A DNA stretch of 64,000 nt. Origin: Prolixibacteraceae bacterium. Lineage in GTDB: Bacteria > Bacteroidota > Bacteroidia > Bacteroidales > Prolixibacteraceae. How positions within the stretch are numbered: position 1 is the first letter of the stretch; each line of letters begins with the position of its first letter. This document shows positions 10,982 to 64,000 of the stretch, piece after piece. The translations under genes and the position numbers were made by a program. The stretch is from the NCBI GenBank assembly GCA_019459485.1, contig JAIBEZ010000022.1, positions 62,001-126,000 of the forward strand. The letters run 5' to 3'. Under the pieces are notes generated by a model that was given only the letters and a program-made list of their open reading frames with translations, was not told where the DNA came from and searched no databases.

Positions 10982-10998
10982 GATTTAAAAAGTTTGGG

Positions 10999-11006: not shown

Positions 11007-11043
11007 ATAAAAAGACGATATCCAGTATGGTCGTTTCACAATT

Positions 11044-46716: not shown

Positions 46717-49700
46717 ATGCTTAAAAAGTGCATTCTTCCGGTACTCTTTTTCCTGATTTCTCTCCCGTTATTCGCAGAATTCAGAACGAATGTACATTCC
46801 ATTTCACGTCGTGAAGGTTTATCGAACGGTGCGGTAAATACGATTGCGAAGGATGCGGATGGATACATCTGGTTCGGAACCTGGAATGGTCTTAACCGGT
46901 TTGACGGCAATGACATGACAACTTATCTGCCCGGAATTAATTCCTATTCCATACACAACCATGTTGTCCGCGAATTGTACCCCACAGCTTCGGGCCCAAT
47001 CTGGATGCTTACCAACAAAGGAGTGGGTTTGTACGACAATGTCCACGACCGTTTTACCAACTATTTCACGAATGAGTCAGAACAGCTCAACTACGAAAAT
47101 GACATTTCTATCAGTCACTCTGACAAATACGGAACACTGGTTTCCGTGTTCGGAAGAGGAATTTTCAGTTATGACAGCATTTCCGGTGAATTCAGGAATA
47201 TTATTTTTGAAGAGACTTCGAAAGCGATTTCCCTTGGCATAAAATGGGTTCAATGGCTGGGCGACTGTGCTTACTTCATTTCAGAAAATGGCCGGCTGAT
47301 TTTAATGAATGGCAACCACCTTCAGGAGATTATGCCGCTGCCTCTCAGTGAAACCCTGACATCATCCAATTCATTCCTCATCAACAACCGTCCTTTCCTG
47401 ATGCTGACACAACGTTCAGGAATGGCCATCCTAATTGATATAGATGCGAAAGAAATTCAGCAGCTATCGATTCCTGATGATATTATTACTTCATTTTCCA
47501 GTTCGAAAAATAAGGAACAACTTTGGGCAGGCACTGAAAAAGGCAAGATATACAGTTTCAACTTGCTTACACGCAAATTTGAAGTGCTTGACCAGCTCTC
47601 AACGCTGTTTATTAATAATCCAATTACTACCCGGATATTGTGTATTTACGAAACTGAACCCGGTATTTTGTGGATAGGAACTGACGGAAACGCCGTATAT
47701 ACACTGAAGTTAACTGAATTCCCGAGTAAGAGCCTGTCATCGGATCAGCTGGCATATCCCACCGTTAGAAGCATACATGTTACCCGCAAGGGCGATGTTC
47801 TGATCGGCACCAAAGGTGGTGGCATCGATATTTTCAACAATAAAGGCGCTCACATTACTTCAATTTCTGTAAAAAACGGACTGAACAACAATTCAGTACT
47901 TTCATTTCACGAACTTAACGATGGTTCGATATGGGTTGGCACTGATGGATTTGGCATTGATATTATTTCGCCGGATTATAAATCCATCCGCAATTTTCCA
48001 TCCGACTTTAAAAGTATGAATACATTGAGTTTCGCTTCTGTATACCGGATACTAGCAGGAAACGATCAGAGGATTTACCTTGGAACGAGCGGTTATGGAG
48101 TAATTATAGTTGAACTCGATTCCAAGGGAATTTTGCCGTTAAGCTGCGAACAATTAATTCTCGAAAAAAATATTACTTCAGCCGGACTGCAAAAACAAAT
48201 TGTTTATGCCCTTGCCGAAGAAAAGCCCGGCATCATCTGGATCGGGTCGCGCGGAGCCGGGGTTTTCAGGTACAATACCATTACAAAAAGAGTCATTGCT
48301 CAGTACAATACCGCAACGCACCCCAATCAAATCAGGAATGATGATATCCTTTCATTATTTACTGACCGGAACGGCCAGATCTGGGCCGGAAGTAGTTATG
48401 GTATTTTTAGTTTCGTGCCTGTTGACGCCGACTCTGTAATTATTGCCGGTTTAAATATTCAAACCGATCTGTCAACTGCCAGTATTCACACGATTCAACC
48501 CGGCAGCCCCGGGGATTTGTGGGTTACGACCAATGAAGGTCTCTCATTAATAAATATCATCAGTTGGAACGTTAAAAGTTTCAATGTAAACGATGGACTG
48601 ATTAATTTTGAATACAGCGACGGCGCATCGTTTTTTGATAAAAATACAGACAAGCTTTATGTCGGGGGCACGATGGGGGTGGATATTATCCAGACCAAAG
48701 AGATTAAATTTTCCTCCTATTTTCCTCCCATAGCGATCAACCATCTTTATATCCGAAACCAATTGATTGAACCCGGGAAGGAAAGTGTATTGACAATCGG
48801 TATTAACTACCAGCAAAACCTGAAGTTAAAGTACAATCAAAATACCATCTCGTTTCATGTCGCGCCTCTCGCATACTGGGGTCGCGAACGGCATAAAATT
48901 TCATACCGGCTTATAAACTTCGATAATGAATGGACGACCAATCCTCAAAATCAGCCAATTAATTTTGCCAATCTGGAACCGGGAAATTACAAGCTCCAGA
49001 TCAGGGTGAGCGATGAGAATGGCATCTGGTCGAAACGAATCAGGGAAATCAGCATGGTTATTGATCCCCCATTCTGGCTAACAGCATGGGCAATTGCTGG
49101 GTATATTTTGGTTTTCATCGGTATCCAGCTTATGATATTCGTAGTTTACCGCCGGCGTGCGATCCGGAAGAAAGAAGCCGCATTGCAGGAATTCAAAATG
49201 AAACAAGAGGAAGAATTGCACAATTACAAAATTGAGTTCTTTACCAACGTGGCCCATGAGTTTCGCACTCCGCTGACAATTATCACTTCACACTTACATA
49301 CATTACTTGATGATACGCAGCTGGCGCTTGAAAATCCCCGCCTGTTAAAAGTATTCAACAACAGTATTAAACTTCAGAAACTGGTGGTTGAAATTATGCA
49401 GTTCAGGAAGTTGGAAAAGGGAAAAGAACCTTTGAATATTCAGCGGACAAATCCGGTTGAACTTATAAAAGAAGTTGTTTCAGATCTGGATTTGCTCGCA
49501 CAGCAAAGAACCATTTCTATGGAGGTGATTGCGCCCGAAACTGAGATTTGTATCATGACCGATGCAGATAAGTTTCAGCGGATATTTACCAACCTGATCT
49601 CAAATTCAGTCAAATACAACAACCCGGGTGGATTTGTAAAAATCAACGTTAATTTTGAAAAACAACTACTTACAATCGAGGTAGAAGACAATGGCGTTGG

Positions 49701-50790
49701 TATTAAATCGGAATATTTTCAGAAAATATTTGAACCTTTTGGAGTTTCTTCAGCAAATAAAAAAGGAAGTTTTCCGGGATATCTGTCAACCGGAATGGGG
49801 CTGGCGGTTACAAAAGGACTGATAGAATTACTGAAAGGAACCATTCAGTTTGAAAGTATTCCGGGAGAAGGAACAAAGTTTACCTGTATTTTTCCTGATG
49901 TGCACCAGCTAAGTTCGGATGAATTGCTCAATGATACTGCAAATAAACTGATCGGAATCGACTATATCAAAGAGCCAACTCATGAAAATATTTTGGAAAA
50001 TCCGGAACTTATAGCTGGAAAGCCATTGATTCTGCTGGTCGATGATGATCCCGAAATTCTGGTTTTGCTAAGGGATTTTCTTCAGCTTGATTATAACATC
50101 CAATTTGCCACCAATGGACTTGATGCTTATAACAAGGTATTGACCGAAAAACCTGATTTAATTGTTTCGGATGTTATGATGCCCGAAATGGATGGTGTTG
50201 AACTGTGCGCAAAACTTCGTGAGAACTTTGATACGAGCCATCTGCCACTGATCCTGCTCACAGCAAAAGCTGAAATTGAAGACCGGATTGCCGGATTGAA
50301 AGCCGGAGCCGATTCGTACATACCCAAACCATTTCACCCCGAACATCTTAAAATTCGTATCGAAAAACTCCTGCACCTTTGGTCAGGAATGAAGAACCGC
50401 TTCAGCCATCCGGATGAGAATCCGGCACTTGAAAAGGAAATCACGGATCCGTTTTTCCATAAAATGATCGGTTGTATCGATGAAAACCTTGACGATGAAT
50501 CATTCTCGTCTGAAAAGTTATGCGATAAACTTGCGATCAGTAAATCTTCGCTTTACAACAAAACCAAATCGTTGCTCAATACCACTCCAAACAGCCTGAT
50601 CAATCAGCGAAGGCTAAGCAAAGCGTCAATCCTCCTCAAATCGACCAACTTATCGGTTAGCGAAATTATCGACCAAACCGGATTTGCAAGCCGCACTTAT
50701 TTCTATGATCTGTTCAGCAAGGCTTATGATTGTTCTCCTTCAGACTACAGGAAAGGTCAGACCGTAAAATCAGCTACCGAAAAAACCTGA
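46717..50790 (+). CDS. Hybrid two-component system with propeller sensor (second utilisation locus)
   Basis: 1357 residues. A signal peptide (to about residue 20) is followed by Reg_prop beta-propeller repeats (DGYIWFGTWNGLNRFDG, PGILWIGTDGNAVYTL, DGSIWVGTDGFGIDII, PGIIWIGSRGAGVFRY) up to about 660, a Y_Y_Y domain (FDNEWTTNPQNQPINFANLEPGNYKL), one transmembrane helix near 790-812, a kinase with His847 in VAHEFRTPL, an ATP-binding domain, a receiver with Asp1152 in VSDVMMPEMDG, and a C-terminal AraC HTH. It senses a periplasmic oligosaccharide and activates genes in cis. The utilisation genes follow directly, so this is almost certainly their regulator. The ligand is unknown. Confidence 0.95.
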   Translation: MLKKCILPVLFFLISLPLFAEFRTNVHSISRREGLSNGAVNTIAKDADGYIWFGTWNGLNRFDGNDMTTYLPGINSYSIHNHVVRELYPTASGPIWMLTNKGVGLYDNVHDRFTNYFTNESEQLNYENDISISHSDKYGTLVSVFGRGIFSYDSISGEFRNIIFEETSKAISLGIKWVQWLGDCAYFISENGRLILMNGNHLQEIMPLPLSETLTSSNSFLINNRPFLMLTQRSGMAILIDIDAKEIQQLSIPDDIITSFSSSKNKEQLWAGTEKGKIYSFNLLTRKFEVLDQLSTLFINNPITTRILCIYETEPGILWIGTDGNAVYTLKLTEFPSKSLSSDQLAYPTVRSIHVTRKGDVLIGTKGGGIDIFNNKGAHITSISVKNGLNNNSVLSFHELNDGSIWVGTDGFGIDIISPDYKSIRNFPSDFKSMNTLSFASVYRILAGNDQRIYLGTSGYGVIIVELDSKGILPLSCEQLILEKNITSAGLQKQIVYALAEEKPGIIWIGSRGAGVFRYNTITKRVIAQYNTATHPNQIRNDDILSLFTDRNGQIWAGSSYGIFSFVPVDADSVIIAGLNIQTDLSTASIHTIQPGSPGDLWVTTNEGLSLINIISWNVKSFNVNDGLINFEYSDGASFFDKNTDKLYVGGTMGVDIIQTKEIKFSSYFPPIAINHLYIRNQLIEPGKESVLTIGINYQQNLKLKYNQNTISFHVAPLAYWGRERHKISYRLINFDNEWTTNPQNQPINFANLEPGNYKLQIRVSDENGIWSKRIREISMVIDPPFWLTAWAIAGYILVFIGIQLMIFVVYRRRAIRKKEAALQEFKMKQEEELHNYKIEFFTNVAHEFRTPLTIITSHLHTLLDDTQLALENPRLLKVFNNSIKLQKLVVEIMQFRKLEKGKEPLNIQRTNPVELIKEVVSDLDLLAQQRTISMEVIAPETEICIMTDADKFQRIFTNLISNSVKYNNPGGFVKINVNFEKQLLTIEVEDNGVGIKSEYFQKIFEPFGVSSANKKGSFPGYLSTGMGLAVTKGLIELLKGTIQFESIPGEGTKFTCIFPDVHQLSSDELLNDTANKLIGIDYIKEPTHENILENPELIAGKPLILLVDDDPEILVLLRDFLQLDYNIQFATNGLDAYNKVLTEKPDLIVSDVMMPEMDGVELCAKLRENFDTSHLPLILLTAKAEIEDRIAGLKAGADSYIPKPFHPEHLKIRIEKLLHLWSGMKNRFSHPDENPALEKEITDPFFHKMIGCIDENLDDESFSSEKLCDKLAISKSSLYNKTKSLLNTTPNSLINQRRLSKASILLKSTNLSVSEIIDQTGFASRTYFYDLFSKAYDCSPSDYRKGQTVKSATEKT

Positions 50791-50944
50791 TTTACTCAGA
50801 AACAATTCTCAAATTCAGAAAAAATTACCTCCGAAAGGATATGTTTTTCCTGAAACCCAGCGATTTCTTCAAAATTTACACGCATTTGTACTATACCGGA
50901 CAAGATCGGGAACGGGGCGGACACAGGTTCAGTTCATTGGATCG

Positions 50945-50952
50945 TAGCTTTG
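50945..50952 (+). promoter_or_regulatory. Candidate -7 box upstream of GH130 gene
   Basis: TAGCTTTG matches TAnnTTTG exactly, 24 nt before the preferred GH130 start at 50976, and would make the locus a transcription unit separate from its regulator gene. No -33 element at normal spacing is visible, which fits an activated promoter. Confidence 0.4.
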
Positions 50953-50975
50953 TTGCAACTATAACAAAACTACCA

Positions 50976-52019
50976 ATGGATATTGCACAACGATTCCCCC
51001 GGAACCCGCTGATTCGTCCTGCCGATCTGAAACCCGGCATTGAAGGAATGGAAATTCTCTGCCTGTTAAACCCGGGCGTTTTTCAATTCGAAGGTAAAAT
51101 CTGGTTGCTTCTTCGCGTTGCCGAAAGACCTAAACAGATTGAAGGCAAAATCAGTTTCCCTGTATATAATAGTAAAGGAAATATCGAAATTCTCAGTTTC
51201 GACACCAATGATCCTGATCTGGATGCGTCAGATCCGCGGGTAATTAATTACAAGAAGAAAGATTATCTGACGACTCTTTCATACCTGCGATTGGTTTGCA
51301 GCGACGACGGAATTCATTTCTCGGAACCCGATGGTTATCCTCCCATTTTTGGCAAAGGCGAACTCGAAACTTTTGGCATTGAAGACTGCCGCGTGGCCAC
51401 TATGGAAGATGGTTTCAGCCTTACTTTTACCGAAGTATCTGAGTTTGGAGTTGGAGTTGGGCTTATCCGCACCAAAGACTGGAAGAACTTCGATCGCAAA
51501 GGGATGATTTTTCCGCCTCACAACAAGGATTGTGCGCTCTTCGAAGAAAAAATAAACGGAAAATATTACGCACTGCACCGCCCAAGCAGCCCTGAACTGG
51601 GTGGAAACTACATCTGGCTGGCCGAATCGCCCGACCTGATTCACTGGGGGCAACACAAATGCATAGCTACCGTGCGACCTGACAGTTGGGATTCGAAACG
51701 TGTCGGAGCTGGTGGCGCGCCTATCAGGACAGAAAAAGGCTGGCTTGAAATTTATCACGGCGCCAACAGCGATCACCGCTATTGCCTGGGAGCCTTGTTG
51801 CTCGACATCAACGATCCTTCAAAAGTACTTGCCCGCAGCGTTGAGCCCATTATGGAACCGATTGAAACCTACGAGCAAACCGGATTTTTCGGGAATGTGG
51901 TATTTACCAACGGCCATTATGTGAAAGGCGACGATATTTTCATGTACTACGGTGCAAGCGATGAAGTGATTTGTGGCGCCAAACTCTCTATATCAAAAAT
52001 ACTTTCAACGCTCATTTAA
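50976..52019 (+). CDS. GH130 family glycoside phosphorylase/hydrolase
   Basis: 347 residues from ATG 50976 (DIAQRFPRNPLIRP), which gives the usual GH130 N-terminus; ATG 50841 would add 45 residues not typical of the family but has a GAAAGGAT just before it. The five-blade propeller shows ILCLLNPGVFQFEGKIWLLLRV, catalytic Asp137 in GIEDCRV, GAGGAPIRTEKGWLEIYHGA and the closing YYGASDEVI. No signal peptide: a cytoplasmic enzyme. GH130 members phosphorolyse or hydrolyse beta-mannosides (beta-1,2- or beta-1,4-linked, often to Glc, GlcNAc or Man). It is followed by an MFS importer after 15 nt, so it probably splits an imported disaccharide. Confidence 0.9.
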   Translation: MDIAQRFPRNPLIRPADLKPGIEGMEILCLLNPGVFQFEGKIWLLLRVAERPKQIEGKISFPVYNSKGNIEILSFDTNDPDLDASDPRVINYKKKDYLTTLSYLRLVCSDDGIHFSEPDGYPPIFGKGELETFGIEDCRVATMEDGFSLTFTEVSEFGVGVGLIRTKDWKNFDRKGMIFPPHNKDCALFEEKINGKYYALHRPSSPELGGNYIWLAESPDLIHWGQHKCIATVRPDSWDSKRVGAGGAPIRTEKGWLEIYHGANSDHRYCLGALLLDINDPSKVLARSVEPIMEPIETYEQTGFFGNVVFTNGHYVKGDDIFMYYGASDEVICGAKLSISKILSTLI

Positions 52020-52034
52020 CAGCAAATTCCTGCA

Positions 52035-53294
52035 ATGATAGCAAAACTGACTGCCGAGTTTCGTTTTTTCCTCTCAATGCCGCACAATATGCGTGTACTG
52101 CTGATTACCAATATGCTGTATGCTTTGGTATTGCCGGTTGTCGAGATATTTATGGCTGCCTACATCATGCGCTATTTTGCCGATACCAGTTATGTGGCCA
52201 TTTTTCAGGTTGCTATGTACACGGGCATCATCATCACTTCGCTGACAAACGGATTTTTGCTGAAGAGTTTCAAAGTTGCACATCTGTACAGTTTTGGTAT
52301 TCTGTTGAGTGGCGTGTCGATGGTGGCAATGATGTTTGTAAAAGACATTAAACTGTTTGGACTGATCGTTTCAGGAACCATGATTGGCGCATCTGCCGGA
52401 TTTTTCTGGACCAACCGCTACCTGATGGCGTTAAACACCACCCGGGATGAAAACCGAAATTACTTTTTCGGGCTTGAATCGTTCTTCTTCACCATCGCTA
52501 ACATTACCATTCCATTGGCCATAGGCGCTTTGCTGGCCTCTATCGACGGGATGAAGATACTCGGAATTGTATTCGACATTTATAAAGGCTACCAAATTGT
52601 AACAATCTTTGTTTTTGTGATCACCATACTGGCCGTTATTTCACTGGCCCGTGGCAAATTCGAAAATCCGGTTCAGAAAGACTTTCTCTATTTTCGCTTC
52701 GATCGCCTTTGGAACAAACAGATTTTACTTGCATTCCTGAAAGGACTTGTTCAGGGATTTCTGGTAACTGCACCAGCCATGCTAATCATGAAATATGTGG
52801 GTCAGGAAGGTTCGCTTGGCCTCATTCAGGGAATCAGCGGCGGATTGACTGCCATTCTGATTTATCTGCTGGGTCGGTTTGCCAAGCCGAAACACCGTAT
52901 TCTCATTTTCGGATTCGGAATTACACTTTTCCTGATCGGAACTGTTGTTAACGGCATCGAGCTATCCATGTTCGGAGTAATGGTATTTGTACTGTGCAAG
53001 GTGTTTTTTCAGCCATTGCACGATCTGGCTTATTATCCGATTATGATGAAGGTGATTGATGTGGTTTCGAAACGCGAAAACCGCAATCAGTACGCCTATA
53101 TCCTCAACCACGAGTTTGGCCTTTATGCCGGTAGGGTTGGCGGACTGGGATTATTCATTTTCCTCGCATTTTACGTTTCAGAAAGCTTTGCACTGCGCTA
53201 CTCGCTAATTATCGTGGCAGTGCTTCAAATGCTCTCTATCCCTCTAGCTAAAAACATCATGAAAGATTCATATACTGAACCTGAAACCAAATGA
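52035..53294 (+). CDS. MFS transporter (probable oligosaccharide importer)
   Basis: 419 residues with about 12 hydrophobic segments (for example LLITNMLYALVLPVVEIFMAAYIM and LIVSGTMIGASAGFFWTNRYLMAL). It lacks the sugar-porter signatures of the fructan transporter and belongs to another MFS branch. It lies between the GH130 gene and a lipoprotein gene it overlaps by 4 nt. GH130 enzymes are often paired with an inner-membrane carrier that brings in the disaccharide, so I infer import of a mannose-containing di- or oligosaccharide. Confidence 0.85.
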   Translation: MIAKLTAEFRFFLSMPHNMRVLLITNMLYALVLPVVEIFMAAYIMRYFADTSYVAIFQVAMYTGIIITSLTNGFLLKSFKVAHLYSFGILLSGVSMVAMMFVKDIKLFGLIVSGTMIGASAGFFWTNRYLMALNTTRDENRNYFFGLESFFFTIANITIPLAIGALLASIDGMKILGIVFDIYKGYQIVTIFVFVITILAVISLARGKFENPVQKDFLYFRFDRLWNKQILLAFLKGLVQGFLVTAPAMLIMKYVGQEGSLGLIQGISGGLTAILIYLLGRFAKPKHRILIFGFGITLFLIGTVVNGIELSMFGVMVFVLCKVFFQPLHDLAYYPIMMKVIDVVSKRENRNQYAYILNHEFGLYAGRVGGLGLFIFLAFYVSESFALRYSLIIVAVLQMLSIPLAKNIMKDSYTEPETK

Positions 53295-55012
53295 AAAAAG
53301 GAACCCTTAAAATATTAGCGCTGGCGTTGCTGGCAGGATTATTCTCTTGCAGCGCACAATTGGGCGAACCGGTGGTTCAGACTTCTTTGCTGCGGATCGA
53401 ACAGATGCCGGATATGCCTCAGCCCCTGAAGATTATCGACTGGAAGAAAAAAACGATGCAGTTCGACAGCCTTGTTTACAATTTCAATTCCACGGATTCA
53501 TACGGCCCGTTGATTTGGCTCGATAGTTCCAGACGAAACATTGATCAGGTTACGTATGGGCTTTACACCGTTATTGGCGATGTTCGTCAGGGACCAAAGA
53601 AGAACAAAGGTGAGTTTCATGAAGCGCTAACATCATATAATTCACTGATCGGTGCAGGATTGATGGGAATTGACAAAACCAATCAGCATGGTTTCAACTA
53701 TGCGAAAATGTCTCAGAATTATTTCAACAGCGATACCAACTGGAATATTCTGATGAACAACACCAATCCTGAAGTGGCAATGGCCGGTGGCGGTTATGGG
53801 CGCGACTGGTGGTACGATGTTTATCCGAATGTGCTGTATTACGGAGTTGCTGCTCTTTTCCCTGATGTTGAAAATACTGAATTCATTCAGCGTAAAGTGG
53901 CAGAACAATTCTACAAAGCTGACTCTGTATTGAACGGGAATTACGATTATTCCTATTTCGATTATGCGCAGATGAAAGGCATGGTAAACAATATTCCATT
54001 ACAACAGGATGTTGCCGGTGGACATGCCTGGATATTGTATTCGGCGTATTACAAATTCGGCGACAAACGCTACCTCGATGGAGCGAAAAGTGCAACCGAA
54101 GCTTTGCTCAGCCAAAAGGAAAGCCGCTTTTACGAAATGCTGCTTCCGTTCGGAACATACACTGCCGCCCGGCTAAATGCTGAACAGGGAGCCAGTTACG
54201 ATGTAACCAAAATGCTGAATTGGATGTTTGACGGCTGCCAGAACAAAGAAGGCCGCTATGGTTGGGGTGTGATTGCCGAAAAATGGGGCGATTTTGATGT
54301 TTCCGGACTTCAGGGAAGTATTACCGATGGGGGCGGATATGCCTTTTTTATGAATTCTGTGGCAATGGCCTGGCCATTGGTGCCAATGGTAAAGTACGAA
54401 CCACAGTACGCACAAACAATCGGTAAATACATGCTGAATCTGGTCAATGCATCCCGTTTATTTTATCCTGATGAGGTTGACGATGCCCACCAGTTTCTGC
54501 CTGAATTGAAAAATCTGACGCAGGGAATTATCGGGTATGAAGGTTTGCGTAAAGTGGACGATTACAACAAACCTGAATTGAAGGGAATCACTCCTGTTTC
54601 AACCGGCGACGGACCCAAATGGACAGCCGGTCAGCCCAAAGAAACCATGTTCAGTCTTTACAGTACTTCTATTGTTGGAATTTTCGGCGCTATTGTAAAT
54701 ACAACCGATGTGGAAGGAATTCTGGCGCTCGATTGCAATGTGACCGACTTTTACGCGGATAACAAATACCCGCAGTACCTCTATTATAATCCTTATGGAA
54801 ATGACACGACAGTTACCTATTCTACAGAAATAAGTGTGGATCTGTTTGATGTGGTTTCGAAAAAATACCTGGCAAAAGCAGGCGAAGGAAACGTGAAAAT
54901 TAAACTGCCGGCAGGAAAGGCCGCTCTGGTTGTTGTCCTTCCTTCCGGTACAAAACTGACAACGGAAGGATCAAAAATAAAAGCCGGGAAGGTGGTAATT
55001 GCTTATAAGTAA
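53291..55012 (+). CDS. Lipoprotein of unrecognised family, putative glycan-active enzyme
   Basis: 573 residues, lipobox LFSC (Cys20). I do not recognise the family. The central ~350 residues are rich in helices with spaced aromatic and acidic residues (GYGRDWWYDVYPNVLYYGVAALFP, DVAGGHAWILYSAYYKFGDKRYLDGA, GSITDGGGYAFFMNSVAMAWP), the pattern of an (alpha/alpha)6-barrel glycosidase or lyase; the last ~100 form a beta sandwich. Possible catalytic residues are Asp/Glu in GRDWWYD and DGGGYAF, but this is a guess. It overlaps the MFS gene by 4 nt and precedes SusC. A paralogue starts at 63603. A role in cleaving the locus substrate is inferred. Confidence 0.6.
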   Translation: MKKGTLKILALALLAGLFSCSAQLGEPVVQTSLLRIEQMPDMPQPLKIIDWKKKTMQFDSLVYNFNSTDSYGPLIWLDSSRRNIDQVTYGLYTVIGDVRQGPKKNKGEFHEALTSYNSLIGAGLMGIDKTNQHGFNYAKMSQNYFNSDTNWNILMNNTNPEVAMAGGGYGRDWWYDVYPNVLYYGVAALFPDVENTEFIQRKVAEQFYKADSVLNGNYDYSYFDYAQMKGMVNNIPLQQDVAGGHAWILYSAYYKFGDKRYLDGAKSATEALLSQKESRFYEMLLPFGTYTAARLNAEQGASYDVTKMLNWMFDGCQNKEGRYGWGVIAEKWGDFDVSGLQGSITDGGGYAFFMNSVAMAWPLVPMVKYEPQYAQTIGKYMLNLVNASRLFYPDEVDDAHQFLPELKNLTQGIIGYEGLRKVDDYNKPELKGITPVSTGDGPKWTAGQPKETMFSLYSTSIVGIFGAIVNTTDVEGILALDCNVTDFYADNKYPQYLYYNPYGNDTTVTYSTEISVDLFDVVSKKYLAKAGEGNVKIKLPAGKAALVVVLPSGTKLTTEGSKIKAGKVVIAYK

Positions 55013-55039
55013 GTTCTAAAATCTTCAAAAACTGAATAT

Positions 55040-58000
55040 ATGAAAAGAATAGCATTATTAGTGTTGCTGATTTCTTCCACCTTTTCGCTGTTTGCGCAAC
55101 GAACAGTCGAAGGAATTGTAAGCGATTCCAAATCAGGAGAAACCCTGATTGGTGTTGCGGTTATGGTCAAAGGAACTACCACAGGCACCATTACCGATAT
55201 CGATGGCAAGTACCGTCTGGTATCGGATCAATTATCTGCCGAATCGGTAATTGTCTATTCATACATGGGTTTCACATCGTCAGAACAAATTACCGGCGAT
55301 CGCACAGTGATTGATGTGAAGCTTGTTCCGGAAGATATTTTGTTGAATGAAATGGTTGTGATTGGATACGGCTCTGTAAAAAAGCGCAGTGTTCTGGGCG
55401 CGGTTGCCAAAGTAAACAACAAAGATCTTACTGCATTGCCGGTTTCGGATGTCGCACAAGCTTTACAGGGTCGCGCGGCCGGGGTGCAGGTTACACAAAA
55501 CACTGGCGCTCCCGGCGAAGGAGTTTCGGTTCGTATCCGTGGTTCAGGTTCAATCAATTCGAGCAACGACCCGCTTTATATTGTTGACGGAATTCCAACT
55601 TCAGACGCGCTTAAAATTCTTTCGCCAGGTGATATTGAAAATATAACTGTACTGAAAGATGCTTCTGCTTCGGCTATTTATGGTTCGCGCGCCAATAACG
55701 GGGTGGTGCTTATTACAACAAAAAAAGGAGTTAAAGGTAAAACAAAAGTCACTTATCGCGGACAGACGGGCTTTCAGCAGGCGGCCAACCTCACGAAGAT
55801 GGTCAATACCACCGATTATGTGACCATATACAATGAAGCCGCCACCAACGACAATGCCTTCCTGCCTGAAAGTTTGCACCGCGGCCTGATCACTCCTGAC
55901 GATGCTCCAAAGTTTTCCAACGTGAACTATGTGAAAGAACTGCTCCAACCGGCACCAATCAATTCACATGAAATTTCACTTTCAGGAGGAAATGAAACAA
56001 CCAATTTTATGATTTCCACTTCGCTTTTCGATCAGAAGGGAATTGTAAAAGGAAGCGGATATACCCGCGGTACTATTCGTCTTGATGTCAATACAGAAGC
56101 CAGTAAATGGCTGACTGTAGGGGTAAATATGCTGGCCGGAATTTCAAGCAACGACATGATTGGCAGTTCGGGCGATGGTGCAGGTGGCAATGGCGGAAGT
56201 GTCGTCAGATATGCGTTCTTCCGCAATCCGGCTATTCCCGTCCGGTTTGAAGATGGAAGATTTGTTGACCGCCCTGCCGAATATTTTGGTGCACAGAAAT
56301 ACGATTCGTTCCTGGGCGATGGTTACAATCCAATCGGCATGAGCGCTTTGAATGACAACAACCGCAAGGACGACAGTTATATGGGCAAGGCCTATTTCAT
56401 TGCCAAAATAACTCCTGAATTAAAATTTACCACCAACGTGGGTGTTGATTACCGCAATTCGTTCAGCCGCCGTTTTTCACCGACCTGGGGAACGCTGGAT
56501 CGTATCAATGCCAAAAACGGACTGAGTATTGGCAGTGAACAAACTGCAAACCTATCGGTGAATAACCTGCTTAATTACGACACTCAAATCGGTGAATCGC
56601 ATACCGTTTCAGCAATGCTGGGGTTCGAAGCCATTAAAAACAGCGGGAAAGGACTATATTCGAGCGACATGGATTTTCCGGTCGAACAAAAGGAACTGAT
56701 TTATATCGGGAACGGATTGGGGATCAAAATGAGCAGCCAGAACGAGTACGCTTCGACACTGGCCTCGCTTTTCGGCAGAATAAACTACGATTACAAAGGA
56801 AAATACTACTTGTCGGGAACGCTCAGACGGGATGGTTCTTCAAGGTTTACAGGTGACAACAAATGGGGAACTTTCTACTCACTTTCTGCCGGATGGGTAT
56901 TGACTCAGGAAACATTTCTGAAGGACGTCTCGTGGCTCTCGAACCTTAAACTTCGCGCAGGCTATGGTGGTGTTGGAAACCAGGATGTCGGTCTTTATGC
57001 TGATAAGGACAGAATATCTCCCTATTACAACTATGCTTTTGGAAATATATCCAATAGCGGTTATGCACAATCAGCCCTTGGAAACGAAAACCTGAGGTGG
57101 GAAACCAGCTACCAGTACAATGCTGGTTTGGATGCAGAATTCTGGAAAGGTGCATTGGCATTTTCTATCGACTATTATTACAAAGTAACCGAAGATATGC
57201 TGGTAAAGGCATCCAATCCGCCATCAACCGGATATGCCGAAGCTGCCTGGATCAACAGCGGTTCAGTATTAAACAATGGGATTGAGCTTGAAGCAACATA
57301 CCGCAAAAACAAACGCGATTGGGGTTATTCAATCGGTGGAAACGTTGCTTTTGTACAAAACGAAGTACTCAAACTGGAGGCGCCACTCTATGGAGGACGG
57401 GTTGAGTCGGGCATAGACGCAACACAAACAGCGGTTGGGCATCCGATCGGTTCGTTTTACATGCTCGAAATGGAGGGCATATTTCATAATGAAACCGATG
57501 TTTTGCTTTCATCATTTCAGGGAGATAACATTCACCCTGGCGATGTAAAATACAAGGACAATACCCCTGACGGAACAATTGATAACCTCGACCGGGTCTA
57601 TCTGGGCAGTGCAATCCCATGGCTTACCGGCGGACTTAACATTGCAGCAAACTACAAAAACTTCGACATCGGCGTGTTCGCACAGGGTGTTTACGGCAAC
57701 AAGATTTATTCGCAGGTAAATCAGGACATAGAAGGTTTTTACCGCGGATTTACTGTTACGCAGCGCTATTTTGATGAACGCTGGATGGGAGAAGGTACTT
57801 CCAATACACAGCCAAGAGCATCCTGGACTTCCAAATCAAACAATGCGATGCCTTCGTCCAGGTTTTTGGAAGATGGCGCTTATCTGAGGTTGAAAAACGT
57901 TCAGCTCGGTTATACGATTCCGGAGAAAACACTGAAGGCAATCGGGTTATCGCAGGTAAGGCTATATGCTTCTGGTACCAACCTGCTTACCCTGACCAAA

Positions 58001-58132
58001 TATTCAGGACTCGACCCAGAAATGACCGTTAGCGACAACTCCAAAAACGAAGGCGACCGCGCCGCCGGTATCGACTGGGGAACTTATCCTTCGGCAATGA
58101 CTTTTATGCTCGGACTTGACATCACTTTTTAA
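55040..58132 (+). CDS. SusC/RagA TonB-dependent transporter (second locus)
   Basis: 1030 residues. A signal peptide (to about residue 21, LFAQ), a carboxypeptidase-like regulatory domain (TVEGIVSDSKSGETLIGVAVMVKGT), a plug (LNEMVVIGYGSVKKR, GSGSINSSNDPLYIVDGIPTSD, VLKDASASAIYGSRANNGVVLITTKKG) and an outer-membrane barrel ending in TFMLGLDITF. It imports the oligosaccharide of the locus. It is 27 nt after the unknown lipoprotein gene and 11 nt before SusD. Confidence 0.96.
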   Translation: MKRIALLVLLISSTFSLFAQRTVEGIVSDSKSGETLIGVAVMVKGTTTGTITDIDGKYRLVSDQLSAESVIVYSYMGFTSSEQITGDRTVIDVKLVPEDILLNEMVVIGYGSVKKRSVLGAVAKVNNKDLTALPVSDVAQALQGRAAGVQVTQNTGAPGEGVSVRIRGSGSINSSNDPLYIVDGIPTSDALKILSPGDIENITVLKDASASAIYGSRANNGVVLITTKKGVKGKTKVTYRGQTGFQQAANLTKMVNTTDYVTIYNEAATNDNAFLPESLHRGLITPDDAPKFSNVNYVKELLQPAPINSHEISLSGGNETTNFMISTSLFDQKGIVKGSGYTRGTIRLDVNTEASKWLTVGVNMLAGISSNDMIGSSGDGAGGNGGSVVRYAFFRNPAIPVRFEDGRFVDRPAEYFGAQKYDSFLGDGYNPIGMSALNDNNRKDDSYMGKAYFIAKITPELKFTTNVGVDYRNSFSRRFSPTWGTLDRINAKNGLSIGSEQTANLSVNNLLNYDTQIGESHTVSAMLGFEAIKNSGKGLYSSDMDFPVEQKELIYIGNGLGIKMSSQNEYASTLASLFGRINYDYKGKYYLSGTLRRDGSSRFTGDNKWGTFYSLSAGWVLTQETFLKDVSWLSNLKLRAGYGGVGNQDVGLYADKDRISPYYNYAFGNISNSGYAQSALGNENLRWETSYQYNAGLDAEFWKGALAFSIDYYYKVTEDMLVKASNPPSTGYAEAAWINSGSVLNNGIELEATYRKNKRDWGYSIGGNVAFVQNEVLKLEAPLYGGRVESGIDATQTAVGHPIGSFYMLEMEGIFHNETDVLLSSFQGDNIHPGDVKYKDNTPDGTIDNLDRVYLGSAIPWLTGGLNIAANYKNFDIGVFAQGVYGNKIYSQVNQDIEGFYRGFTVTQRYFDERWMGEGTSNTQPRASWTSKSNNAMPSSRFLEDGAYLRLKNVQLGYTIPEKTLKAIGLSQVRLYASGTNLLTLTKYSGLDPEMTVSDNSKNEGDRAAGIDWGTYPSAMTFMLGLDITF

Positions 58133-58143
58133 TCTGCTGAAAC

Positions 58144-59673
58144 ATGAAACGAATTACAATCAAAATAACAGACACTTTCAGAAATCAGATGATGAAAGCT
58201 TATAGAATGAAACTACAAACAGCAATGCTGCTGGTTTTGGCACTGGTCATTTTCAGTTCCTGTGAGGATTTTTTAACCGAAAACCTGAAAGGAAGTTTCT
58301 CAACCGACACCTTTTACAAGAATGACAAACAGTCTATTCAGGCTATAAACGGAGTGTATCATGCAATTTCATTTTCCAGTGCCGACAATGTAATCTGGGT
58401 ATTTGGAGCTGTTGCTTCCGACGACGCTGTTAAAGGCGGCAACCCGGGTGATCAGGCTGAAATTACTTACATCGATGAATTCACCGCGAATTCAACCAAT
58501 GGAATGATCAGCAATTACTGGAAATTTGCCTATGAAGCCATTGCCCGTGCCAACACCGTCATTGCCAATGTTCCGGCAGTTCCGATGGACGAAGCAATGA
58601 GAAACAGAATTATCGGCGAAGCTAAATTTATCAGGGCTTATAGTTACTTCAACCTGGTAAATATCTTTGGAAAGGTTCCGCTGAAACTGTTGCCCCAGCT
58701 CACTCCTGAAACGATTAATGTTCCGTTGAGCGAAGTTGCTGCCATTTATCTTCAGATTGAAAAAGACCTGACGGAAGCTGCCGCGGTTTTACCGGTTTCG
58801 TACACTTCAGCAGATATTGGCCGCGTTACCAAAGGCGCTGCGTTGGCTATGTCGGGAAAAGCAAGTTTGTACCAGCAAAAATGGGCTGCAGCCATCACCT
58901 TTTTTCAACAAGTTGAAGACTTTGGAATTTACAGCCTTTTACCCGATTATGCCGATAATTTCAAACTGGCTTTTGAAAACAGCAGCGAATCTATTTTCGA
59001 AATTCAGCAACTGACCGAACAAAATCCTTTCACCGGAAATGCCATGAACCAGTGGTTTGCACCTCCTGCAGAGGGTGGTTATTATTTCAATGCACCAACT
59101 CAAAGTCTGGTTGATGCTTTTGAAAAAAGTTCGACCGGCGAAGTTGATCCCCGCCTTGATGCTTCTGTTGGCCGCGATGGTCAATCCTGGCTGAACGGTG
59201 ATCTTTTCAGCGCCGGTTGGTCGCCTACGGGTTATCTCACAAAAAAACACCAGCAACCGCTTTCCGAAGTTTCTTCTTCGCTGAAAGGCGATGGCGACCT
59301 CAACTATATTTACCTGCGATATGCCGATGTTTTACTGATGAAGGCAGAAGCATACAATGAAACAAACAATGCAGAACAGGCCAAAACCAATCTGAATAAA
59401 GTGAGGCAACGTGCCCGTGCAAGCTTTGTTGGAACTCTTCCTGATGATCTGTTGGCTGATATCACAACTTCAGATCAATCCCTACTCCGGACAGCCATTC
59501 AAAAAGAAAGAAGGGTTGAACTGGCACAGGAATTTCACCGTTATTTCGACCTGACACGCTGGGGCAAAACAGTTGCCGAAGCTGCGCTTGGAGCTGATTA
59601 TAACTACGAGGCCAAACGGTATTTGCCAATACCGCAGGCTGAATCAGATGCAAACCGGGCTATAAATCCCTGA
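58144..59673 (+). CDS. SusD/RagB family lipoprotein (second locus)
   Basis: 509 residues as written, but the lipobox IFSSC lies at about residue 40, unusually late; an internal ATG at 58192 or 58207 (MKLQTAMLLVLALVIF) would give a normal lipoprotein signal, so the true start is probably one of those. The SusD fold is clear: AKFIRAYSYFNLVNIFGKVPL, YIYLRYADVLLMKAEAYNETNNAEQA, and RRVELAQEFHRYFDLTRWGKT with a final YLPIPQAESDANRAINP. It partners the SusC 11 nt upstream. Confidence 0.94.
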   Translation: MKRITIKITDTFRNQMMKAYRMKLQTAMLLVLALVIFSSCEDFLTENLKGSFSTDTFYKNDKQSIQAINGVYHAISFSSADNVIWVFGAVASDDAVKGGNPGDQAEITYIDEFTANSTNGMISNYWKFAYEAIARANTVIANVPAVPMDEAMRNRIIGEAKFIRAYSYFNLVNIFGKVPLKLLPQLTPETINVPLSEVAAIYLQIEKDLTEAAAVLPVSYTSADIGRVTKGAALAMSGKASLYQQKWAAAITFFQQVEDFGIYSLLPDYADNFKLAFENSSESIFEIQQLTEQNPFTGNAMNQWFAPPAEGGYYFNAPTQSLVDAFEKSSTGEVDPRLDASVGRDGQSWLNGDLFSAGWSPTGYLTKKHQQPLSEVSSSLKGDGDLNYIYLRYADVLLMKAEAYNETNNAEQAKTNLNKVRQRARASFVGTLPDDLLADITTSDQSLLRTAIQKERRVELAQEFHRYFDLTRWGKTVAEAALGADYNYEAKRYLPIPQAESDANRAINP

Positions 59674-59722
59674 GATTACCAATACAATTATTTAATATCA
59701 ATAAATCTTTAACAGTAACATT

Positions 59723-61006
59723 ATGAAAATGAAAAATTTGTTTGGAGTTCGTATCCTGCTGCTTATGCTAGTTGTAAGTTCAGCAATGATCTTTGGATCG
59801 TGTGAAAAAGATGAACCAGTTGGAGACAAAACCAGTTTAACTGCGTTAATTTCTGCGGCTGATCAGCTTTCTGCCTCTGCTACCGTTGCCGTTTATCCGC
59901 AGGCAGCAATTGATGCTTTTAAAACTGCCCTGGCTGCCGTAAAAACTGCTTCTGCTTCCACCACGCTTACCCAGGCGGAAGTTGATGCGCAGGTAACAGC
60001 TTTAAATGCAGCTACAGCCACCCTGAATACTTATAAAACGGATGACTATGCAGCGCTATATGCATTAATTACTTCCAGTGAAACGCTTGCCAATGGCGCA
60101 ACCTCTGCGACCTACCCGCAAACGGCAATCGACAACTTTAAGACAACCCTGGCGACCGTTAAAACTGCTGCCGCAACTTTACTTACTCCGGCACAAATCA
60201 CCAATCTGAACGTAAATTTAACCGCAGCCAAAAAAACTTTTGGAACGCAGATTTATGGTTTTATTGATGAAGCTTTGTACCTGACTGCCGGCTGGCATTT
60301 TGACGAAGGAACCGGAACTACAGCAACTGCTTTCTCAACAGTTAAGCATGTTGGAACATTTAAAGCAGGAAATGCAGTTATTATGGGTGCCAATTCCAAA
60401 TCACCAGCTTGGGGCGATGGTTTAAAAGGTGGAAAAGCGCTCGTTTTAGATGGAGGAGCTCATCTTGAAGTTCCTTATACAACAGCATTTCTTCCCGCTA
60501 ATCTGACAATTTCAGTTTGGGTAAAACCAACTGTATTAAGAGCTGACAACTACATCGTCTCACAAAATTACTGGACCGGATACAAATTGCAGATTCAGGA
60601 CGGTGGCAAACCATTCTTTACATTTAAGAAGGTTGATGGCGGTATTGTTGATGCCGATAATGAAACAGATAACTCTGTAAAGGTTAATGTTTGGAATCAT
60701 GTTGTTGTAACATTGAATGCAACCACCAAAGAATTGAAGTTCTTTGTAAATGGCACGCATACCAAAACATGGACAGAAGCAAACAAAGGTATAGGTCCAC
60801 TTACGCAAACCCTTACAGCTCCAAGCCCACAGCCATTTATTATTGGCGGAGTTGCTACCGATGCTGAACTCGCTGCCAATTTCATGGAATGGACAACAGC
60901 TGCAAATCTTGGATACTTCAAAGGATCTATCGATGAACTGAAAATCTACAACATCGCGTTGGCAGATGGTCAGATTTCTAAATTATACATGGACGAAAAA
61001 CCGTAA
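59723..61006 (+). CDS. LamG-domain lipoprotein on a helical-repeat stalk (probable surface glycan-binding protein)
   Basis: 427 residues with a lipobox IFGSC. Residues ~35-105 and ~106-175 are two FIVAR-like helical repeats (LISAADQLSASATVAVYPQAAIDAFKTAL and LITSSETLANGATSATYPQTAIDNFKTTL regions), probably a stalk. Residues ~185-425 are a concanavalin/LamG domain (LTISVWVKPTVL, WNHVVVTLNATTKELKFFVNG, GSIDELKIYNIAL). It lies straight after SusD, the usual position of a surface glycan-binding protein. The ligand is unknown. It is followed by an intrinsic terminator. Confidence 0.82.
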   Translation: MKMKNLFGVRILLLMLVVSSAMIFGSCEKDEPVGDKTSLTALISAADQLSASATVAVYPQAAIDAFKTALAAVKTASASTTLTQAEVDAQVTALNAATATLNTYKTDDYAALYALITSSETLANGATSATYPQTAIDNFKTTLATVKTAAATLLTPAQITNLNVNLTAAKKTFGTQIYGFIDEALYLTAGWHFDEGTGTTATAFSTVKHVGTFKAGNAVIMGANSKSPAWGDGLKGGKALVLDGGAHLEVPYTTAFLPANLTISVWVKPTVLRADNYIVSQNYWTGYKLQIQDGGKPFFTFKKVDGGIVDADNETDNSVKVNVWNHVVVTLNATTKELKFFVNGTHTKTWTEANKGIGPLTQTLTAPSPQPFIIGGVATDAELAANFMEWTTAANLGYFKGSIDELKIYNIALADGQISKLYMDEKP

Positions 61007-61040
61007 TCAGTTGGGTTAGTTTTTTGTTTTGATATTTAAA

Positions 61041-61093
61041 GGAAGGCCCAATTGAACTGCATGTGAAAGCAGGCTTTTGGGCCATCCTTTTTT
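61041..61093 (+). terminator. Intrinsic terminator inside the second locus
   Basis: GGAAGGCCCAA (61041-61051) pairs with TTGGGCCATCC (61077-61087) with one mismatch, followed by six T. It lies 35 nt after the LamG gene stop and 22 nt before the next start, and should reduce transcription of the downstream enzyme genes. Confidence 0.75.
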
Positions 61094-61115
61094 AAAGACA
61101 ACGTAATTGTTCATC

Positions 61116-63584
61116 ATGTCATTACTCAAATTTAGACTCATATCTGTTTTAATTTTTCTGACGATTCTTTGTATTGGTTTCTCCGCGAGCAGCCAGCAGT
61201 TGCATCTCCGGGCGACCGGCGACACCCTCGATGGATACCGTGTTGAGATTTATGATGACAATCGCCTGCTTGTCACCAATACCGAAGAGTTTTCTATCAG
61301 GCTTTTCAATACCGACGGCAGTACCGTGGCAACAATGGCATGGAAAGGCGACAAATGGACCGGAAATGCTTCGCTGATCACCCTAACCCGTGATTCTTAT
61401 ATTCCGGAGTTTGATGCCAATCTATCTGTCAGCGTTCAGTACCGGATTGTCAACCGGAATGTGGTGAAAAAGACCATTCAGCTTTTTCAAGCCTCCATGA
61501 CAGATATGTATTACATTTTGGAAGAGACGTCCCGCCCGGCACAAAAGCCCTTGAAATATATAAGCTTCGGATACGATAACTTTCCCGGTGGGCTTGTGCA
61601 CGAAATGTATCCTGCAGCCGGTTGGGTAACTCCTGATAATAAAGTCGTTGGTTTTTTAACCGATGCAGGTTACCGGAACCAGTTTACACGCACCACCCGT
61701 CGCCGTTTTAGTGGCAGGGGAGGTGGTTTTGTCGGAATGCGCGTGCTTCCCGATCCTGCACTTTATACCGTGGCTACTCCGGAAGAACAAAATCAGCAAA
61801 ACGATTATATCCGCCAGACGTTTGGCGAAATGTACAACCTGGATGCAGGAACCACCCGGATAGTCAATGCCGGAAATGAATGGCACAAAGAAGGAAATGT
61901 AGATGTGGTGCGTAACGACAGCCTGATTTCGCTTATCTGTCACCCAAATGGCAGGGCAGGCATAGAATTTATCGCCCCCTTCGAAGACCAGAAAATTTAT
62001 ACCATCTCTTTTCAATGCAAAGGCAACACGCCCATAGCGCTCAAATTATTTCGTTTTCGCAATGGAGTAAGAACCACCGAACTCGAAGAAGGCGTAAAAT
62101 ACATCGATAATTTCCCTGCCAACGAAAAGGAATGGACCCTTTTTAAAGGCAGTATTCTCGTTCCGTATATAGAACATGATTCAGTATCCATGTTTATCGG
62201 GACACAATCAGGGCTGGAATCAAAATTACAAATTAAAAATCTGCAATTCGAAGAGCATCAGCCGCAAAAGGAAGCATACAACCTTCTTCCCATGGGGCAA
62301 CCAATGGAGAAAACCACCTATATTTTTACCGAACCCAATACAACCCACAAAGACTTTATGATTTCCGCGCAAACCCGCATGGCGGAAGGCAAGGGATTCA
62401 AAGGCTCACAAATTGAAAAAATGCTGTATGCCAACTTCAATATGCTGACCTGGATCACTTCAGTACGGGACATGACTCCCTTCAATGTGCCGAACATGAA
62501 TTATTCTCCGGACATGTACAACCGCGATTCGTTTTTCTCTACCGTTGCTACCTATAACAAGGAATTAAATCTGTCCATCTGGGATCAATGGGGCAAAACG
62601 CAGACACCCAAGGGCGGAATCGGCACCATTATCACTCCATACATGGGATCGGTGGAAGCCAAAGACAACGAGGCTACCATTGAATGGCTGATCTGGGCAA
62701 TGCTGAACAAACGCCGTTTTGGAGTCAGCCTTCCGGAGGAAAAGATAAAGAAGGCCGTTGACTATGTGCTGAATGAATTCGATGCTGAACACAATGGCAA
62801 ATGCCGTTCACACTTTTCCCTTAGCCAGGTCGATATTGTCGATTTCAAACCAAAGACAGACCGGTTGGGTGTTAACCAGGGAATGTTGGCCATTGCATTG
62901 CGCACGATCAAAGAACTGGGCTTCGATATTTCAGAATCTTATCTCGAAAAAGTGGAACAGGAATACCGGAACTTTTATGACCCGCAGCGACGCCATCTTT
63001 TGTTCGACCGCAACTTTCCCGACATCATTACCCTGACTGATCTGGAACCTGAATTCTTCTCACTTTGGCTGTTCAACCGGCCAATGCTGACGGATGAAAT
63101 GGTCGTCAATCACCTGAATCAAGTACCCGTTCTGAATAAAGTGTCCAATTCGCCGCATCCAGAATTGGGTACCACTGCACCTATTTGTGTTCGCCTCACC
63201 AAGGATGAAAAAGGATTTGCCTATCTGACTGGCGATTACCAGCCTTTTGAGAAATTCGGCGAAGCCAACTACAGCAATGGGCAGAGCGACGGATATTATT
63301 ACAATGGAGGAAGCTGGATGAGGGCCGAATATTGCGCCTACGTGGTTGGGCTGAAACACGGATGGAAGAATGCCGGCAAGCTGATGGAGAACCGGATTTG
63401 GGCGGAGATCAATCTCAACCCGAAATGGCCGTTCAGCAAGGAATTTATCCCCACCAAATGGACGGACACCGATTCGTGGTGGGTTTCAACCAAAGGTCTC
63501 TGCTGGAATGTGTTCATCCTCATGGCCAATGAAGTGGCTGGCCTTCGTACTCCCGATATGGATCCTGATTATCAGAAAAAATAA
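61116..63584 (+). CDS. Large secreted protein of unrecognised family, predicted (alpha/alpha)6-barrel glycosidase
   Basis: 822 residues from ATG 61116; an upstream in-frame TTG at 61107 is less likely. A signal peptide runs to about residue 25 (FSASSQQ). Layout by eye: beta-sandwich ~28-240, an inserted jelly-roll-like, carbohydrate-binding-type domain ~245-385 (ISLICHPNGRAGIEFIAPF, YTISFQCKGNTPIALKLF), then a helical half ~410-815 with NYSPDMYNRDSFFSTVATYNKEL, KDNEATIEWLIWAML, YNGGSWMRAEYCAYVVGL and WTDTDSWWVSTKGLCWNVF. This recalls clan GH-L/GH-M/rhamnosidase-like barrels, but I cannot name a family. Asp and Glu in NRDSF, DNEAT and MRAEY are possible catalytic residues. It follows a terminator in the locus. 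Confidence 0.55.
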   Translation: MSLLKFRLISVLIFLTILCIGFSASSQQLHLRATGDTLDGYRVEIYDDNRLLVTNTEEFSIRLFNTDGSTVATMAWKGDKWTGNASLITLTRDSYIPEFDANLSVSVQYRIVNRNVVKKTIQLFQASMTDMYYILEETSRPAQKPLKYISFGYDNFPGGLVHEMYPAAGWVTPDNKVVGFLTDAGYRNQFTRTTRRRFSGRGGGFVGMRVLPDPALYTVATPEEQNQQNDYIRQTFGEMYNLDAGTTRIVNAGNEWHKEGNVDVVRNDSLISLICHPNGRAGIEFIAPFEDQKIYTISFQCKGNTPIALKLFRFRNGVRTTELEEGVKYIDNFPANEKEWTLFKGSILVPYIEHDSVSMFIGTQSGLESKLQIKNLQFEEHQPQKEAYNLLPMGQPMEKTTYIFTEPNTTHKDFMISAQTRMAEGKGFKGSQIEKMLYANFNMLTWITSVRDMTPFNVPNMNYSPDMYNRDSFFSTVATYNKELNLSIWDQWGKTQTPKGGIGTIITPYMGSVEAKDNEATIEWLIWAMLNKRRFGVSLPEEKIKKAVDYVLNEFDAEHNGKCRSHFSLSQVDIVDFKPKTDRLGVNQGMLAIALRTIKELGFDISESYLEKVEQEYRNFYDPQRRHLLFDRNFPDIITLTDLEPEFFSLWLFNRPMLTDEMVVNHLNQVPVLNKVSNSPHPELGTTAPICVRLTKDEKGFAYLTGDYQPFEKFGEANYSNGQSDGYYYNGGSWMRAEYCAYVVGLKHGWKNAGKLMENRIWAEINLNPKWPFSKEFIPTKWTDTDSWWVSTKGLCWNVFILMANEVAGLRTPDMDPDYQKK

Positions 63585-63602
63585 CCTTTTAAAATAACAA
63601 TT

Positions 63603-64000
63603 ATGACCCGTTTTATTCTCCTCGCACAGTTGTGCATCTTCGCGATGCAATCATTTGCACAACAGGGACAATTGAGTATTTCCCGGATCGATAAAATGCC
63701 CGATACCCCTTCGCCCCTTCAAATCAGGGACTGGAAAACAGTGGCGCACGATTACGACAGCTTTGTTTTCGACCTGAATAAAACCGGGACCTATTTACCC
63801 TTGGCGCGTTTGGGAACTCCGGGTCAATTTAACTATACCGACAATACACCGCTATTTCTTGATTCGTATGTGGGGGCTGACAATCATTCCAATCAGGCTG
63901 AAGCCATAAACATTATGCCAGCCATCGTTGGAGCTTCGCTTTCAGGAATAGACAAAAGCAACCAGAATGGCACGAACTGGGTCGCCAAAGCCAAAGACTT
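63603..64000 (+). CDS. Paralogue of the 573-aa unrecognised lipoprotein family (partial)
   Basis: The frame is open from ATG 63603 to the right edge, 132 residues visible. A signal peptide (FILLAQLCIFAMQSFAQ) without a lipobox is followed by ISRIDKMPDTPSPLQIRDWK and SLSGIDKSNQNGTNWVAKAKD. These match LRIEQMPDMPQPLKIIDWK and GLMGIDKTNQHGFNYAKMSQ of the protein at 53291-55012, so the two are paralogues in one locus. Unlike the first, it would be a soluble periplasmic or secreted form. The family is unknown to me. It starts 18 nt after the previous gene and is probably co-transcribed. Confidence 0.7.
   Translation, partial: MTRFILLAQLCIFAMQSFAQQGQLSISRIDKMPDTPSPLQIRDWKTVAHDYDSFVFDLNKTGTYLPLARLGTPGQFNYTDNTPLFLDSYVGADNHSNQAEAINIMPAIVGASLSGIDKSNQNGTNWVAKAKD

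Follow-up and report, generated by a model that had tools for sequence, protein, structure and literature searches.

The stretch analysed here, termed the window, comprises 64,000 nucleotides from the genome (5.53 Mb) of a Prolixibacteraceae bacterium, namely bases 62001-126000 of contig C96 (144,141 bases). From about 46717 to 67600 in window-equivalent coordinates it carries a locus of the SusC/SusD polysaccharide utilisation type, whose natural end lies past the window and in which adjacent susC and susD genes are accompanied by a regulator and a glycan-active enzyme. With about as much confidence as doubt, we propose that this locus serves the utilisation of a glycan containing beta-1,2-mannose, and that two of its protein families, here named A and B, depolymerise and trim this glycan as glycoside hydrolases of the (alpha/alpha)6 type, neither family having been described before. 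The proposal draws on the nearest relatives of the GH130 enzyme of the locus, on a gene order retained in distant genomes and on predicted protein folds.

The linkage was approached via the GH130 enzyme, whose match to PF04041 lies above the curated cut-off. In a phmmer comparison with the PDB it was matched end to end by Uhgb_MS with 604 bits and by Lin0857 with 347 bits, followed by two further beta-1,2 phosphorylases (181 and 165 bits) and by beta-1,4 types at 147 bits and below. According to passages of PMC8950772, Uhgb_MS forms beta-1,2-mannobiose from mannose and alpha-mannose 1-phosphate, and Lin0857 and Teth514_1789 are beta-1,2-mannobiose phosphorylases. Judged by these relatives the enzyme of the locus probably works like a beta-1,2-mannobiose phosphorylase, though it is not classed as one by the models NF050092 and NF052550. 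An earlier note on this DNA, made from the window alone, had taken GH130 to imply a beta-mannoside product in the cytoplasm; this is upheld and can be narrowed to a beta-1,2-mannoside. The imported product is most likely of this kind and not plant beta-1,4-mannan, so that plant mannans and N-glycans become less likely as substrates of first choice.

A second GH130 branch was found next to the same protein families. The Mucilaginibacter genome L196 (locus L054) carries A (37% identity) and B and lacks the window-type phosphorylase; the GH130 protein encoded directly upstream of A reaches 667 bits against the model of the beta-1,2-mannosidase BT3780 and thereby passes its cut-off of 550, and genes of the ROK family and the major facilitator superfamily (MFS) lie 2-4 kb downstream of B. 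This locus is apparently a hydrolase-plus-kinase variant that deals with the same linkage in a different way. That two distinct GH130 branches of one linkage adjoin A and B is the strongest single point in favour of a beta-1,2-mannoside substrate. As a separate observation, the L054 stretch holds two GH130 genes of one sequence cluster, the first of them being the one that passes the BT3780 cut-off.

The distribution of the two families was determined in 296 sampled genomes of the phylum, of which 14 contained A and two contained B, the present genome being counted in both. In a further scan with one genome per species 71 loci with B were obtained, and these, together with 14 places from the sampled genomes, made up 85 tblastn maps, L019 and L062 being an identical place. 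Of the 13 loci with family A in other genomes, 12 had a GH130 gene in the fetched 20 kb, about 10 kb or less from A, at a chance expectation of about 1% (3 GH130 genes in this genome). Seven of these 12 were of the window type (at least 59% identity) and five of other types (29-39%), and the single locus without GH130, L028, is situated 5.4 kb away from the end of its contig. GH130, MFS and A were consecutive in 34 of the 39 MFS-bearing loci, 30 times directly and four times with B between GH130 and MFS; in three of the remaining five, B, SusC, SusD and a further family, C, separate GH130 from MFS, and the last two are truncated where the contig stops. GH130-MFS-A is the most conserved cassette. 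As no other protein of this cassette is a candidate for an exported enzyme, A most likely liberates the product that is imported by the MFS protein and split by GH130. Among the 33 B loci that are fully flanked (at least 9 kb available to either side), A occurred in 28, GH130 in 23, MFS in 22 and SusC in 28; the five without A are L036, where a 50-residue piece is kept, L062, L070, L087 and L102.

Neither family has a significant sequence relative in Pfam, NCBIfam or the PDB, in agreement with the earlier note, which had spoken of two unrecognised families. Pfam and NCBIfam gave nothing above the cut-off for A1, the first of the two family A proteins of the locus, or for B, and in the PDB no match had an E-value below 0.1, with the single sequence as well as with a profile. 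The second family A protein, A2, shares 33% identity with A1 over 580 columns and consists of the family A domain, a LamG domain (PF13385) and a C-terminal sorting tail of the type IX secretion system (PF18962), the latter two above their cut-offs; the sorting tail points to a location at the cell surface. The AlphaFold model of A1 (pLDDT 89, pTM 0.91, from 15 sequences) predicts a helical barrel followed by a C-terminal beta-sandwich, and in Foldseek GH127 and GH146 structures led the matches, with E 1.6e-7 for the best GH127. The acidic residues D59, E111, E282, E417, D440 and D486 are near-invariant (at least 97%) in 60 family A sequences, in which no cysteine or histidine is conserved at 97%. 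Assignment of A to GH127 itself was rejected, given the lack of a PF07944 match and an hhalign probability of 2.8% against 28 GH127 proteins of the same phylum, with 100% in the GH127-versus-GH127 control. A search of PHROGs led nowhere, the significant matches sitting in the LamG region of A2.

For B the AlphaFold model (pLDDT 77, pTM 0.75, 36 sequences; several conserved loops of low confidence) predicts an N-terminal beta-sandwich, an inserted beta domain resembling a carbohydrate-binding module (CBM) and a helical barrel. GH116 came first in Foldseek (E 2.4e-11), followed by maltose and cellobiose phosphorylases among others, and a CBM22 match covered about 160 columns. Membership in GH116 was also rejected: a PF04685 match was absent, and hhalign gave 2.2% one way and 11.9% the other, in a comparison with just three GH116 proteins, of the same phylum. 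In 62 sequences, 255 columns of B are conserved at 98% or more. Across distant Bacteroidota family B proteins share at least 61% identity (best segment, range 61-89%), and the adjoining SusC and SusD proteins often about 35%; this suggests either exchange of the cassette or a very strong constraint on B.

Based on the predicted folds, both A and B are proposed to be glycoside hydrolases. The alternative that one or both are non-enzymatic binding proteins with a degenerate barrel draws on the lipoprotein-like nature of A1, which many binding proteins share, but we consider it quite improbable, as it has to accommodate the six near-invariant acids of A and the conserved columns of B and would leave the locus without any depolymerase. 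The earlier note had called the locus a promising source of a new enzyme class; through the predicted glycosidase-type folds this stands as a well-founded lead, but not as a result.

Several observations weigh against the proposed function, and some of them concern the linkage. The GH130 protein stays below the equivalog cut-offs of NF050092 (427 of 550 bits) and NF052550 (213 of 450 bits). For these proteins NCBIfam gave just three GH130 models, each of the beta-1,2 type, so that its ranking of distant GH130 proteins is biased, and the PDB rankings of two distant GH130 proteins mix beta-1,2 and beta-1,4 enzymes. Moreover, a gene of GH26, a beta-1,4-mannanase family, lies about 6 kb from B in locus L073. 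This gene, together with four GH26 matches elsewhere in the present genome, would fit a locus for plant beta-1,4-mannan with unusual enzymes, in which GH130 acts on beta-1,4-mannobiose. Such a substrate is very improbable, since the beta-1,2 enzymes top the GH130 ranking by a wide margin, the GH26 genes of this genome are located on other contigs and the locus contains no match to GH26, GH5 or GH113. The L073 stretch, from Mucilaginibacter, was additionally seen to carry a ROK-family gene and another MFS gene by sequence cluster, with GH26 and DUF5060 genes near and no GH130 in the stretch.

Further difficulties for the beta-1,2-mannose proposal arise from gene content and from the structural matches. 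B is absent from all 13 A loci and is hence not essential; it would be an added enzyme, found in part of the loci only. In six of the fully flanked B loci A is present and the fetched stretch shows no GH130 (L049, L052, L057, L073, L077 and L084); the stretches of L052, L057, L077 and L084 begin inside SusC/SusD, where an upstream GH130 would go unseen, and those of L049 and L073 are not cut in this way. Window-type GH130 (at least 59%) occurs without A in nine of 17 genomes and with A in eight, the present one included, and in these nine (L127-L135) neither A nor this MFS gene lies within the fetched 20 kb. Genes resembling SusC/SusD stand on the opposite strand in L127 and L128. The 17 genomes were counted without G202 (58%, partial, one internal stop), G249 (47%) and G236 (39%), and no A was found in the fetched surroundings of G249 and G236. 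A is therefore usually accompanied by GH130, GH130 is often found without A, and the window-type enzyme may have a second role. In Foldseek, a phage tail protein ranked as high as 12 for A1, and the best matches of both A and B had low TM-scores of about 0.3-0.4 and large root-mean-square deviations, so that an (alpha/alpha)6-type glycosidase can be read from them and membership in a given family cannot.

The main fact that a plain beta-1,2-mannan substrate leaves unexplained is the frequency of a gene for a GH13 alpha-glucosidase-like protein, which occurs in 20 of the mapped loci (e.g. L099:16704-18338) and in many copies shows an export signal by eye. It points to alpha-glucose as a further constituent of the natural glycan, next to beta-1,2-mannose. 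A less probable alternative is that the locus serves a mixed polysaccharide of beta-mannose and alpha-glucose, for instance an exopolysaccharide of bacteria or algae; A and B would then cut other bonds, such as glucosyl or uronosyl ones, and the part of GH130 would be confined to removing the mannosyl end product. It would also accommodate the GH32 genes in L078 and L021, the GH2 genes in six other A or B loci and a LacZ-type GH2 in L102, the polysaccharide lyase structure at rank 26 among the Foldseek matches of B and, according to passages of PMC8950772, the existence of GH130 enzymes acting on mannosyl-glucuronate. Against it, GH13 is not part of the locus in the window and gives only partial matches in this genome (best by E-value 31% over residues 43-225), while GH130, MFS and A keep together, and GH32 is confined to the two loci named.

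The other genes of the mapped operons were surveyed after the core families, GH13, family C and open reading frames below 150 amino acids had been set aside, which left 69 genes. In the 63 other operon genes that were scanned, no known glycanase family was common to two, GH3, GH10, GH32, GH115 and GH2 showing once each. These data also bear on the idea that the substrate is a yeast-type alpha-mannan with beta-1,2-mannose caps and that A is an alpha-mannanase of GH76-like fold. Portions of PMC8950772 state that Uhgb_MS accepts alpha-1,2-mannobiose too, portions of PMC4599007 that BT3780 acts on the beta-1,2-mannose of Candida mannan, and among the Foldseek matches of A a GH76 structure takes rank 46 (TM 0.53 when scaled to target length). 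This structural match is weak (E 3.7e-3), however, and GH76, GH92, GH99 and GH125 are neither matched in the locus nor common to two of the operon genes scanned; we regard an alpha-mannan as unlikely.

The complete extent of the locus was established by following the contig rightward to its end, 18,141 bases beyond the window. The genes are arranged in the order hybrid two-component system (HTCS) regulator, GH130, MFS, A1, SusC, SusD, LamG lipoprotein, B, A2 and a small lipoprotein (Table 1). Gaps between them measure 185 bases (regulator-GH130), 15 (GH130-MFS), 27 (A1-SusC), 11 (SusC-SusD), 49 (SusD-LamG), 109 (LamG-B) and 18 (B-A2), with an overlap of 4 bases between MFS and A1. The start codon of the GH130 gene was picked from the alignment to Uhgb_MS. 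Upstream, on the opposite strand, are genes which from their sequence we take to encode ribosomal protein S16 and RimM. Directly beyond the last lipoprotein gene lies a release factor gene, and nine of the ten larger downstream genes belong by Pfam to the release factor, acetyltransferase, polyphosphate kinase, LysR, AAA/DUF4143, Suf and AIRS families, the tenth having no Pfam match; the scan took these ten larger genes, shorter and antisense open reading frames being outside it. A known endo-glycanase or lyase was found by Pfam neither in the locus nor in these ten genes. In a terminator scan at the end of the locus, signals were no commoner than in shuffled sequences.

Table 1. Genes of the locus in window-equivalent coordinates (positions above 64000 lie past the window)
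Gene product	Position	Strand	Length (amino acids)	Matches and signals
HTCS hybrid two-component regulator	46717-50790	+	1357	Pfam Reg_prop, Y_Y_Y, HisKA, HATPase_c, Response_reg, HTH_18
GH130	50976-52019	+	347	PF04041 145.9 bits (cut-off 26); no signal peptide by eye
MFS transporter	52035-53294	+	419	PF07690 48.7 bits (cut-off 33.4)
Family A protein A1	53291-55012	+	573	lipoprotein-type signal LFSC by eye
SusC TonB-dependent transporter	55040-58132	+	1030	TIGR04056 883 bits, TIGR04057
SusD glycan-binding lipoprotein	58144-59673	+	509	PF07980, PF14322
LamG-domain lipoprotein	59723-61006	+	427	PF13385 72.9 bits; lipobox FGSC by eye
Family B protein	61116-63584	+	822	secretion signal by eye
Family A protein A2	63603-66719 (L003:603-3719); cut by window edge at 64000	+	1038	
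Small lipoprotein, after A2, last in locus	L003:3899-4600 (end at 67600)		233	

The regulator, SusC, SusD, the LamG protein, the MFS protein and GH130, all named in the earlier note, were confirmed by Pfam and NCBIfam matches. Its statement that no known endo-acting glycosidase or lyase is present holds for the complete locus including the part past 64000, and the rightward extension it had proposed as a check brought no standard endo-mannanase or lyase just downstream to light. The LamG lipoprotein is a probable surface glycan-binding protein and the MFS protein likely the inner-membrane importer of the released mannoside. In the proposed pathway, A2, exported via the type IX secretion system and combining the family A domain with LamG, would cut the glycan at the cell surface, assisted by the LamG and SusD lipoproteins, and SusC would bring the pieces in. 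The lipoprotein A1 and the secreted B would trim the pieces to a beta-1,2-mannosyl disaccharide, which the MFS protein would carry into the cytoplasm, where GH130 would phosphorolyse it, forming alpha-mannose 1-phosphate and setting a sugar free. A or B may in this way act as a beta-1,2-mannanase. A bolder version is put forward only tentatively: family A, alone or together with B, would be a bacterial enzyme dedicated to endo-cleavage of beta-1,2-mannan and the founder of a glycoside hydrolase family of its own, and the GH130-MFS-A cassette would form the core of a food chain on beta-1,2-mannan that is widespread among free-living Bacteroidota.

Family C, of about 440 amino acids, was present in 12 loci (e.g. 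L058:17475-18791). One copy had no Pfam match at 0.01, two others matched GH127 weakly (E 0.015 and 0.02), and hhalign gave a probability of 63% against GH127; family C is a candidate for a further undescribed enzyme family. The possibility that A, B, C and a DUF608-like family D form one sequence family was rejected, hhalign giving about 10% or less. Genes for mannose 6-phosphate isomerase (PMI) were found downstream in some loci. On another contig of this genome, C17, a family 4 glycosyltransferase (GT4), whose fused extra domain bears a distant likeness to family C (25% identity), and a second GH130 are encoded 3.3 kb apart on the minus strand (L146:5319-7673 and 10962-12560), possibly as a pair for mannoside synthesis or recycling. 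Directly upstream of a GH130 gene, L137:2-9742 contains an open frame of 3247 amino acids with a weak GH130 match (56 bits).

Utilisation loci and glycosidase folds are already known as kinds, and families A and B and their conserved tie to beta-1,2-type GH130 look undescribed in Pfam, NCBIfam, the PDB, PHROGs and the literature, CAZy not being among the sources covered. In passages of PMC8950772, PMC4599007 and PMC4264767, enzymes acting on beta-1,2-mannosides are placed at the oligosaccharide end, as GH130 phosphorylases and mannosidases. No enzyme cutting the beta-1,2-mannan polymer was found among the literature matches listed, and a published one could have been missed. Passages of PMC4264767 report beta-1,2-mannans from the cell walls of Candida, the stores of Leishmania and the O-antigens of some bacteria, and mannogen is mentioned as background in a portion of PMC7105311. 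Given this occurrence, a beta-1,2-mannan-cutting enzyme, if the proposal is true, would also be a useful analytical tool. As the cassette GH130-MFS-A is present in cultured strains of Flavobacterium, Pedobacter, Lutibacter, Labilibaculum, Daejeonella and Ferruginibacter, two or three expressed proteins could answer the question directly.

Among known systems, the predicted fold of A, with its helical barrel and beta-sandwich, is like that of the GH127 and GH146 beta-L-arabinofuranosidases. GH127 enzymes have a conserved catalytic cysteine. The title of PDB entry 8qf2, with its cysteine-directed probes, agrees with this, whereas family A lacks a cysteine conserved at 97%. The predicted fold of B, a beta-sandwich with a helical barrel, resembles the GH116 beta-glycosidases TxGH116 and TeGH116, the catalytic Glu and Asp of TxGH116 being E441 and D593 according to PDB titles; B differs in its extra CBM-like insert, the missing PF04685 match and the low profile similarity. 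Uhgb_MS and Lin0857 belong to the same GH130 family as the enzyme of the locus (604 and 347 bits), and Uhgb_MS is described in passages of PMC8950772 as a mixed-linkage mannoside synthase, whereas the enzyme of the locus is known here by its sequence. The BT3780 system of Bacteroides likewise deals with beta-1,2-mannosyl bonds, and L054 has a GH130 of the BT3780 type next to A and B. According to portions of PMC4599007 the yeast mannan loci of BT3780 depolymerise alpha-mannans, whereas the locus in the window carries no known alpha-mannan enzyme, and its GH130, unlike the mannosidase BT3780, is nearest to phosphorylases.

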